Of a stretch of DNA of 8,129 nt, positions 3,040-5,147 are shown piece by piece. The first letter of the stretch is position 1. Each line of letters starts with the position of its first letter. The DNA is from Candidatus Pelagibacter sp. TMED239. Lineage in GTDB: Bacteria; Pseudomonadota; Alphaproteobacteria; Pelagibacterales; Pelagibacteraceae. The notes below the pieces were generated by a model. The model saw only the letters and a program-made list of their open reading frames with translations. It was not told where the DNA came from and made no database searches. The DNA lies in NCBI GenBank assembly GCA_002169475.2, contig NHKK02000034.1:3804-11932 (forward strand), in the 5' to 3' direction. The position numbers and the translations under genes are program-made.

Positions 3040-4041
3040 TTAGTAATCTTTTACCAGTTTCACTAAATAGTCCATCATAATGGGATCAGTTTCTGGAAGC
3101 ACCCCATGACCTAAATTGAAAATATAAGGGTGATCCTTAAAAATATCCAGATATTTTTCAGCTTCTCTTTTTATATTTTCTTTGTCTGTTAACAAAACCT
3201 TTGGGTCCATACCGCCTTGAATAGGAATATGAATTTCCTTGGAAACTTTAACTGGGTCTACTTCGTAATCAATACAAATAACATCTGGCTTAACAATTCC
3301 ACAATAACTTTTATAATCCTTGATGCCTCTGGGGAAGCATATTACTGGTATATTCAAAGACTTCACGTATTCAACTAAATTTGATGTTGGAGCATAAACA
3401 TATTTTGATAAGTCTCTTTGTTCAAGCAAGCCAGCCCAACTATCAAAAATTTGTATTATTTCGGCACCATTATCAATTTGATTTTTAATGTGAACTTTTA
3501 AAAATTTTTCTAAAATAATCAAAATTTTATTTATTAAAAAAGAATCTTTAAAAAAATCTTGTTTTAATTTTAACTTAGGTGATTTTTGGTTTATCATGTA
3601 CACCAAGAGTGTCCAAGGAGCTCCTACAAAACCTATTGTGCTTTTATTTTTCATAACTTGACTTTTGTTTACTAAGCTAATCGCTTTATAAACAGGATGA
3701 ATTTTTTCAATAAAATCTGCCTCTTTTGTTTTTAAGATATTTTCTAAATCTAAATCTCCTAATAGTGGCCCAAAATTTTTTTTAAATTCGACACTTTGAT
3801 TTAGACCATATGGTATCATTAAGATGTCAGAAAAAATAATAGCGGCATCAAGATCAAATCTTTTAAGTGGCTGCAAAGTTATTTCTGACGATAAATCTTT
3901 ATTAAGGCATAATTTTATAAAATCTGGATTTTGTTTTCTAATTTCTCTAAATTCTGGTAAATATCTTCCAGCTTGTCTCATTATCCATATTGGATTAATA
4001 GTAGTTTGTTTGTTAATTATTACTTCTCTTAATGGTGACAT
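3040..4041 (-). CDS. hemE: Uroporphyrinogen decarboxylase
   Basis: HemE removes four carboxyl groups from uroporphyrinogen III to give coproporphyrinogen III in the cytoplasm. The 333 residues are about normal length. Signature 1 is at 17-33 (PIWIMRQAGRYLPEFRE) with the substrate arginines R22 and R26. The key Asp is D72 in FSDILMIPYGL. Signature 2 is GFVGAPWTLL at 137-146, followed by Y148. The region FDSWAG and the C-terminal GHGVLPETDP, with its conserved His near residue 312, are present. It is the first gene of the leftward hemE-hemH-hemJ unit, with the putative origin directly upstream. A close TATAAT promoter lies in that gap. In Caulobacter, a CtrA-controlled hemE promoter also lies inside the origin; similar wiring here is inferred, not shown. 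Confidence 0.98.
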   Translation of the reverse strand: MSPLREVIINKQTTINPIWIMRQAGRYLPEFREIRKQNPDFIKLCLNKDLSSEITLQPLKRFDLDAAIIFSDILMIPYGLNQSVEFKKNFGPLLGDLDLENILKTKEADFIEKIHPVYKAISLVNKSQVMKNKSTIGFVGAPWTLLVYMINQKSPKLKLKQDFFKDSFLINKILIILEKFLKVHIKNQIDNGAEIIQIFDSWAGLLEQRDLSKYVYAPTSNLVEYVKSLNIPVICFPRGIKDYKSYCGIVKPDVICIDYEVDPVKVSKEIHIPIQGGMDPKVLLTDKENIKREAEKYLDIFKDHPYIFNLGHGVLPETDPIMMDYLVKLVKDY

Positions 4042-4082
4042 ATTAATAATTAAATATATTTGATAGTATTATTAGTATAACC

Positions 4083-4091
4083 TGTGAATAA
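4083..4091 (-). promoter_or_regulatory. DnaA box TTATTCACA
   Basis: Read on the minus strand the 9-mer is TTATTCACA, which fits the general DnaA-box consensus TTWTNCACA at every position. It lies inside the candidate origin and overlaps the predicted transcription start of hemE (about 4090). Binding of DnaA here could affect both replication and hemE expression; that is inference. Confidence 0.55.
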
Positions 4092-4096
4092 CGATG

Positions 4097-4125
4097 ATTA
4101 TATTTTGTAAACATTTTATTAACAA
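4097..4125 (-). promoter_or_regulatory. Candidate hemE promoter inside the origin
   Basis: On the minus strand a -35 element TTGTTA (4125-4120) is separated by 17 bases from a perfect -10 element TATAAT (4102-4097). The start would fall near 4090, giving a leader of about 49 bases before hemE. The -35 hexamer overlaps the CtrA-like site at 4119-4133, an arrangement that would allow repression by a bound regulator. Confidence 0.5.
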
Positions 4126-4140
4126 TTTATTAACATTTAG
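4110..4140. repeat. 11-bp tandem repeat, helically phased
   Basis: Two 11-base units, AACATTTTATT (4110-4120) and AACAATTTATT (4121-4131), are followed by a partial third, AACATTTAG (4132-4140). The period is close to one turn of DNA, so the TAAC cores sit on the same helix face. This is the layout expected for cooperative binding of a protein to direct repeats. It contains the CtrA-like site. Confidence 0.6.
4119..4133. promoter_or_regulatory. CtrA-type site TTAA-N7-TTAA
   Basis: The sequence TTAACAATTTATTAA is an exact match to the alphaproteobacterial CtrA full-site consensus TTAA-N7-TTAA, and is followed by C as in many CtrA half-sites. It overlaps the -35 of the predicted hemE promoter. 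In Caulobacter, CtrA binds such sites in the origin and represses initiation and the hemE promoter. TTAA is common in A/T-rich DNA, and whether this organism has CtrA is not visible here, so function is uncertain. Confidence 0.4.
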
Positions 4141-4261
4141 TGCTAAAAATTTATTTAATATATAAGAAAAATTGAAGCTTATTAACAAATATCGCAAATT
4201 ACAAAAATTTTAATAAAGATGTTTAATATTGTTAATAAAAGTCTGGTTTTACAACGTAAAT

Positions 4262-4290
4262 TTTAGAATGTTAAAATGATTGAATATAAT
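4262..4290 (+). promoter_or_regulatory. Candidate promoter for the DUF299-maf-aroE-coaE-dnaQ operon
   Basis: A -35 element TTTAGA (4262-4267) and a perfect -10 element TATAAT (4285-4290) are separated by 17 bases. Transcription would start near 4297, leaving a leader of about 26 bases. A TTAACATTTAGT element (4309-4320), repeated at the other side of the gap, lies between the start and the ATG. This is the only obvious promoter upstream of the five overlapping genes. Confidence 0.5.
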
Positions 4291-4322
4291 TTAAACAATA
4301 AAAAGTTGTTAACATTTAGTAC

Positions 4323-5147
4323 ATGAGCAATACATATCAGATTTACTTAATTTCAGACTCGACAGGAGAGACTCTAGATAGAATTTTTATTGCAATTAAA
4401 GCTCAATTTAAAAATATTGATTATAAAATACACACCTGTTCATTCACCAGAACAGAGAATCAGATATACAAAATCCTCTCTGAAGCTGAAAAGCATTCTA
4501 ATTCGATTATTTTATACTCAATAGTTGACAGTAACCTGGCCAAACATCTAGCAAACATCAGCAACGATAAGAAAATACCTTGTTTTGGAGTATTGGGTGA
4601 TTTGATCTTAAGCTTTTCTAAATTATTAAACCAAAAAGCCTCACATCAGCCAAGTGGACAGTACGCTTTAAATGATGAGTATTATAAAAGAATTTCAGCA
4701 ATTCAATTCACAATGAGTCATGATGACGGAAATCTTTTAAAAGAACTAAATAAATCTGATATTATATTGTTAGGAGTTAGTAGAACCAGCAAAACGCCAA
4801 CCTCAATCTATTTGGCAAACAAAGGCTTTAAGACATCAAATATTCCCTTAATTAATGAAAACTCAATTCCAAAAATACTTAAGGATAATCCAAAATTAGC
4901 CTGTGTGGTTGGTCTTAATACAGAACCTGAAAGACTTGTCGATATTAGAAAAAACAGGATGAACTCAATCAAAGAAACAGAAAATAAATCTTATACAAAT
5001 CTTGAAAAAATAAAAAAAGAAGTTGATCAAGCTAAAGTTACTTTTAGAAAATATAAATGGCCTGTTATTGATGTTACAAGAAAGTCTGTAGAAGAAACCG
5101 CAGCATCAATAATAAAGATATACGAAATATATAAAAAAAATGTTTAA
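4323..5147 (+). CDS. Kinase/pyrophosphorylase (DUF299), PPDK or PEP synthase regulatory protein
   Basis: Members of this family phosphorylate and dephosphorylate a threonine of pyruvate phosphate dikinase or PEP synthase (E. coli PpsR/YdiA), switching the enzyme off and on. The 274 residues are of family length. The N-terminus YLISDSTGETLDRI (8-21) is the family hallmark, MSHDDG lies at 131-136, and the nucleotide-binding loop GVSRTSKTPTSIYLA is at 151-165. The last third includes PERLVDIRKNRM (202-213). Which target enzyme it acts on cannot be told from this window. The ATG at 4323 aligns with the usual start of the family; no Shine-Dalgarno motif precedes it. It overlaps maf by 8 bases and heads the rightward operon. 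It is the homologue of the gene flanking alphaproteobacterial origins. Confidence 0.94.
   Translation: MSNTYQIYLISDSTGETLDRIFIAIKAQFKNIDYKIHTCSFTRTENQIYKILSEAEKHSNSIILYSIVDSNLAKHLANISNDKKIPCFGVLGDLILSFSKLLNQKASHQPSGQYALNDEYYKRISAIQFTMSHDDGNLLKELNKSDIILLGVSRTSKTPTSIYLANKGFKTSNIPLINENSIPKILKDNPKLACVVGLNTEPERLVDIRKNRMNSIKETENKSYTNLEKIKKEVDQAKVTFRKYKWPVIDVTRKSVEETAASIIKIYEIYKKNV

Follow-up and report, generated by a model that had tools for sequence, protein, structure and literature searches.

A candidate chromosomal replication origin between hemE and ppsR in a SAR11 bacterium, with a DnaA-box code relaxed at position 6

The 281-bp gap between the divergent genes hemE and ppsR in this SAR11 bacterium is very probably its chromosomal replication origin. 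We favour this reading of the sequence because five lines of evidence agree: the flanking genes, the conservation of the gap, an array of DnaA boxes, a DnaA-trio-like element and a switch in strand skew. The window, that is the whole stretch of 8,129 nucleotides that was analysed, belongs to SAR11 (Pelagibacterales). Within it, a preliminary description had proposed an origin at this place, pointing to hemE and a DUF299 gene on either side and to outward gene polarity. Both observations held, with Pfam matches flanking the gap at exact coordinates and the two genes directed away from it:

4042..4322, no strand: candidate oriC, the 281-bp intergenic gap that separates the divergent genes hemE and ppsR
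3040..4041, minus strand: hemE, flanking gene (PF01208, URO-D, E 2.7e-84)
4323..5147, plus strand: ppsR (DUF299/COG1806), flanking gene (PF03618, Kinase-PPPase, E 1.7e-87)

On the minus strand of the window, rho, hemJ (UPF0093), hemH and hemE all lie before the gap, with secB at the far end, while the plus strand carries ppsR, maf, aroE, coaE and dnaQ after it; the short names hemJ and dnaQ are those we take these genes to bear. The window has no Rfam match to an RNA gene at gathering scores, and a search for terminators found none. The location is a known alphaproteobacterial origin place: the mapped origin of Caulobacter crescentus, Cori, is described as lying between hemE and COG1806 (PMC1914354), with the same divergent flanks and an AT-rich intergenic region that carries DnaA boxes. 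What is new here is the detail, namely a SAR11 box code with A at position 6 (A6), a phased array, an AT-eroded trio-like element and a near-constant length across SAR11. The literature searched yielded no detailed account of oriC in SAR11, though DoriC may contain a prediction for Pelagibacter. In this analysis we computed the uniqueness of the gap in a 600-kb contig of the relative G001 as well as its position, skew, conservation, box code, pitch and trio register.

A scan for relatives identified at least 584 stretches encoding one, of which we kept the best 80, all titled Pelagibacteraceae, Pelagibacterales or Candidatus Pelagibacter. In each of these 80 SAR11 loci hemE lies on the minus strand and the gap measures 270-283 bp (the hemE start was extrapolated in L009, L053 and L059). 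Fifty further loci of the SAR11 order, made up of 30 plus 20 of 40 other places and coinciding in a few cases with the earlier ones, gave the hemE/ppsR pair in 48 cases, with gaps of 258-289 bp. In L135 and L136, also of this order, hemE was not found beside the ppsR gap, and the upstream gene appears by eye to be the start of rho. Including the window, 129 gaps reduced to 122 distinct sequences, 104 close and 18 distant; all of them share descent, so that counts across the 122 gaps are non-independent. The preliminary description had expected conserved blocks among relatives, and alignment brought these out together with the near-constant length: mean pairwise identity of the gap is 74.3% (81 sequences, the 80 loci plus the window), as against 41.7% in ppsR and 42.3% in hemE at fourfold sites in codons that share their first two bases, which places the gap under strong selection. 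Its length alone is unexceptional, since at least twelve divergent gaps of the relative G011 are longer; intergenic distances in that genome have a median of 3 bp between called genes and 74.5 bp between divergent genes.

The arrangement extends beyond SAR11. In a class-wide sample of 114 genomes, 78 had a PpsR match and 36 had none, and hemE was divergent in all 28 loci inspected (the best 28 of 76 class genomes besides G001 and G007), with gaps of 308-1,067 bp. Within the order, a PpsR match was absent from 28 of 98 genomes, 22 of which had a HemE match. In this group without a PpsR match (L217-L238) the gap sits between hemE and maf in 22 of 22 loci and measures 262-278 bp, and the origin place thus appears to persist after loss of one flank.

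We searched the 122 distinct gaps for recurrent words and recovered, de novo, TTATTAACA as the most enriched 9-mer, which 114 gaps contain, compared with 8.8 expected when dinucleotides are shuffled. The family TTATN[AC]ACA occurs 398 times compared with 26 in such shuffles and is absent from only 2 of the 122 gaps. By spelling at position 6, the A6 boxes TTATNAACA account for 309 occurrences (21 expected) and the C6 boxes TTATNCACA for 89 (5.0 expected), while the G6 form TTATNGACA (3 against 1.9) and the T6 form TTATNTACA (15 against 18.6) stay near expectation. The elements along the gap of the window are as follows:

4042..4063, no strand: AT-rich stretch adjoining hemE, the proposed unwinding (DUE) side, a putative role suggested by its place beyond the trios
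4064..4078, plus strand: five DnaA-trio-like triplets, reading ATA CTA ATA ATA CTA on the minus strand from S0, with the middle A on the plus strand
4083..4091, minus strand: S0, the sole classical DnaA box, TTATTCACA, an exact match
4105..4113, plus strand: S1, DnaA-like 9-mer TTGTAAACA, first of the array with 11-bp pitch
4116..4124, plus strand: S2, TTATTAACA, in the 11-bp-pitch array
4127..4135, plus strand: S3, TTATTAACA, which with S2 gives an apparent CtrA motif
4172..4187, plus strand: conserved block TTGAAGCTTATTAACA, whose 3' part is S4 (4179-4187)
4230..4238, minus strand: S5, TTATTAACA, DnaA-box-like
4246..4254, plus strand: conserved block GTTTTACAA, exact in 56 of 104 close gaps
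4307..4315, plus strand: S6, TTGTTAACA in the window, TTATTAACA or TTATACACA in relatives
4318..4326, plus strand: S7, a weak candidate 9-mer picked by eye, 11 bp past S6 and overlapping the ppsR start codon

The consensus DnaA box and the repeated 9-mers of the preliminary description were both confirmed: the gap of the window holds one perfect TTATNCACA (4083-4091, minus) and four TTATNAACA, a DnaA-box cluster, and TTATTAACA starts at 4116, 4127 and 4179 on the plus strand and at 4230 on the minus strand. The description of the gap as poor in classical boxes is correct for the C6 spelling only and fails overall, since A6 boxes are abundant. Column by column, position 5 is variable, with S1 and S2 showing all four bases, and A or C predominates at position 6. 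At S0 the close gaps are uniformly C6 (104 of 104) and the distant ones mostly A6 (14 of 18); S3 is TTATTAACA in 59 of 104 close gaps and has C6 in 8 of 18 distant gaps. At S5 the close gaps read TTATTAACA (77), TTATCAACA (11), TTATTCACA (4) or TTATAAACA (3), and at S6 (103 gaps) the counts are T 61, A 28 and C 14 for position 5 and A 76 and C 27 for position 6. Conservation is lower at S4, which reads TTATTAACA in 9 of the 104 close gaps, and S7 is spelled TTATACATG in the consensus alignment and TAGTACATG in the window. Judged from these columns, the sites vary as a DnaA box would if its position 6 were relaxed. SAR11 DnaA itself has a canonical domain IV with an RDHTT recognition helix.

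Lone mismatched boxes carry little weight, because the window has 18 boxes with at most one mismatch against 12.8 expected and 20 of 200 shuffles reach 18; the four TTATTAACA among these 18 all fall within the gap. Across 600 kb of G001, the gap alone has three exact sites and other separate windows have at most two. One-mismatch boxes were rejected as a genome-wide discriminator, as other windows of G001 (genome about 29% GC) reach 7-8 and the gap 6-7.

The boxes are also phased. S1-S3 form a head-to-tail array with an 11-bp pitch, that is 9-mers with 2-bp gaps. Counting same-strand pairs of boxes with at most one mismatch in the 104 close gaps, we found 157 pairs at 11 bp and 72 at 22 bp, with 0-20 at each remaining spacing between 9 and 25; all 122 gaps, once their bases were shuffled, gave 1.6 pairs at 11 bp. 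The 18 distant gaps show a weak peak with one mismatch, with 5 pairs at 11 bp against 7 each at 10 and 22 bp, and a clear one with two, where 58 pairs at 11 bp are followed by 31 at 22 bp. The same pitch is found in E. coli oriC, whose low-affinity DnaA sites are reported to lie 2 bp apart (PMC6727663). The SAR11 gap differs from it in its flanking genes and its smaller array, and the likeness is known here at the level of sequence.

Box code and pitch bear on a rival account, in which the gap is a mere divergent promoter or regulatory region of hemE and ppsR and the 9-mers bind a transcription factor. The gene pair is indeed divergent and sigma-70-like matches are present, but the latter occur at chance (7 compared with 5.4 in shuffles), and the box code and the 11-bp pitch fit DnaA. 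Such an account also sits poorly with the hemE/maf gap of similar length in all 22 loci that lack a PpsR match, and with G007 and G013, in which hemE was not found in the stretch examined and similar sites are seen by eye upstream of ppsR. In its favour stand two conserved blocks, GAAGCTT and GTTTTACAA. On balance we regard it as very unlikely. GAAGCTT occurs in 72 of 122 gaps against 0.5 expected, and conservation across 4172-4181 is 0.94; in the GTTTTACAA block, positions 5-7 (T, A, C) are invariant in 104 of 104 close gaps. Conserved as they are, these blocks match no known origin element that we could name.

The preliminary description had further noted a CtrA-type site. One TTAA-N7-TTAAC is present in the gap of the window, so the motif match stands, and it spans the adjacent DnaA-like boxes S2 and S3. 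We considered whether the repeats carrying TTAAC are CtrA sites through which the origin is repressed, on the Caulobacter model, a reading compatible with the gap being an origin. The full motif is somewhat more frequent than expected, 17 in 122 gaps against 7.7. A TTAAC half site, however, requires T5 together with A6; the repeats vary at position 5 in the manner of DnaA boxes, which breaks TTAA, and C6 replaces A6 at the same sites. With full sites so few, we rejected CtrA as the main reading of the repeats, and the 'CtrA site' is better read, from its pattern of variation, as two putative adjacent DnaA boxes. G001 and G011 each encode four OmpR-type winged-helix proteins; none of the four of G001, one of which is PhoB, reaches the NCBIfam cut-off for CtrA (the best among the matches listed scores 113 against 350 bits, with a Rhodobacter-type model and a single-cell assembly of about 1.1 Mb). 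CtrA control of these repeats thus strikes us as quite unlikely. A short OmpR-type winged-helix protein of SAR11 (L315:1159-1719 and L314:1492-2073) has an N-terminal half resembling a degenerate receiver domain, and among the NCBIfam matches listed for the L315 protein none is above cut-off.

For IHF, no WATCAN5WTR site was found in the gap of the window, and the 122 gaps together hold 45 compared with 57 in base shuffles. The SAR11 gap thus differs from Cori, for which five CtrA sites and one IHF site are described (PMC1914354), in having no convincing enrichment of either, and also in its short length (281 bp) and its mostly TTATNAACA boxes. The CcrM target GANTC is depleted, the 122 gaps having 2 sites where about 14 would be expected (4 against 28.8 counted on both strands); in G011 as a whole it occurs 1,475 times, compared with 3,503 expected from base composition. 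A CcrM homologue has been reported in SAR11 (PMC3973325). SAR11 origins are almost without GANTC although GcrA was found in 6 of 8 genomes.

On the hemE side of S0, a 4-bp spacer (4079-4082) separates the box from the five triplets, which face the AT-rich DNA adjoining hemE; there, mean conservation is 0.92 and 0.89 in the first two ten-base blocks. Read on the S0 strand, the middle position of the successive triplets is T at frequencies of 0.89, 0.90, 0.45, 0.91 and 0.46, compared with 0.01-0.28 at the other two positions. Runs of at least three triplets follow S0 in 90 of 122 gaps and in 45% of base shuffles, and runs of at least four in 57 of 122 gaps and in 18% of shuffles. Control scans of the 122 gaps after S3, S4 and S5 gave 59, 33 and 40 runs of at least three and 10, 15 and 14 of at least four. 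A single register holds 89 of the 90 runs after S0; this shared register partly reflects descent, because all 40 runs of the S5 control also fall in one. The window sequence thus contains a box, a spacer within 0-16 bp and at least three trios with a middle A, the composition of a basal unwinding system. It resembles in this the systems of Bacillus subtilis and others, described as a box followed, past a short spacer, by three or more triplets with A in the middle (PMC8287927), and is set apart by its 4-bp spacer and by AT-eroded triplets of the 3'-[T/G]AT-5' type. TAGTAG-like triplets beside a CTGTG box are visible by eye in other class genomes and in the hemE/maf group (e.g. L226, L238 and L289), and a simple search for a CTGTG box next to triplets found none in a number of these wider loci.

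From this layout we infer how DnaA might bind at the gap, how its sites would rank in affinity, where the DNA would open and how DnaA-ATP could time the event. DnaA would sit on S0, the single classical box, and with ATP would fill the presumably low-affinity A6 boxes, S1-S3 at their 11-bp pitch and S4-S7. A DnaA filament could then extend from S0 onto the trios of the plus strand and open the AT-rich stretch adjoining hemE, where the helicase would be loaded. More tentatively, and as a serious possibility rather than our expectation, SAR11 may have a recoded origin, with mostly TTATNAACA boxes in a phased 11-bp array, one classical anchor box and no CtrA or IHF input, in which initiation would be set mainly by the level of DnaA-ATP and whose spelling would have arisen independently in AT-rich mycoplasmas. 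The same A6 9-mer, TTATTAACA, has been put forward as a DnaA box in Mycoplasma hominis, M. mobile and M. arthritidis (PMC2751442). That lineage is unrelated, and its one or two boxes are described as lying upstream of dnaA (PMC2751442). The 281-bp gap offers a substrate with which to study origin function in a streamlined, AT-rich cell.

SAR11 are among the most abundant bacteria in the ocean. Their replication has been estimated in situ from origin-terminus coverage gradients (PMC9589681), and one recent study takes dnaA as the starting point for aligning SAR11 genomes (PMC12421898). That gene is about 64 kb distant from the gap; a precise origin would be a better anchor than dnaA for such coverage and alignment work. 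We ran chromosome-wide tests on the relatives G011 (1.32 Mb, last 649 bases left out), G001 (600 kb of contig 1) and G021 (24 sampled stretches). The preliminary description had named a GC-skew minimum at the gap as evidence that would support an origin there. After strand correction, the GC3 switch lies at 301,018 in G001, about 2.6 kb from the gap (303,522-303,803), and at 1,165-1,166 kb in G011, 10-11 kb from the gap (1,155,070-1,155,349), so that two of the three relatives have a switch within 11 kb, with wide intervals; the 24 stretches of G021 gave no clear switch. The uncorrected cumulative minima, 333,959 in G001 and 1,182,879 in G011 (maximum 528,020), are 28-30 kb off. AT3 skew in G011 fits about equally at 635 kb and 1,165 kb and lacks a single switch. 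The SAR11 strain HTCC1062 is listed among chromosomes with apparently unequal replication arms (PMC2099444).

These positions also speak to the proposal that the true origin lies near dnaA and that the gap is a relic of an ancestral origin. The dnaA-dnaN region is a common place for origins. The distance between dnaA and the gap is about 64 kb in both G001 and G011 and about 63 kb in G021, and the bootstrap intervals of the switch, 253-383 kb in G001 and 1,074-1,198 kb in G011, include dnaA. The likelihood nevertheless prefers the gap in both genomes tested, an origin there outfitting one at dnaA by 4.0 (G001) and 2.7 (G011) log units and falling short of the best-fitting points by 1.6 and 2.5, respectively. 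In the three of six loci where dnaA was located, the roughly 380-390 bp upstream of it contain no TTATN[AC]ACA, and neither 74% identity nor near-constant length is expected of a relic. An origin at dnaA is, in our assessment, extremely unlikely, even though most exact boxes have been lost from the gap of G011. That gap (L097) keeps its length and flanks with one exact box only, and makes a natural test case for the limits of origin erosion.
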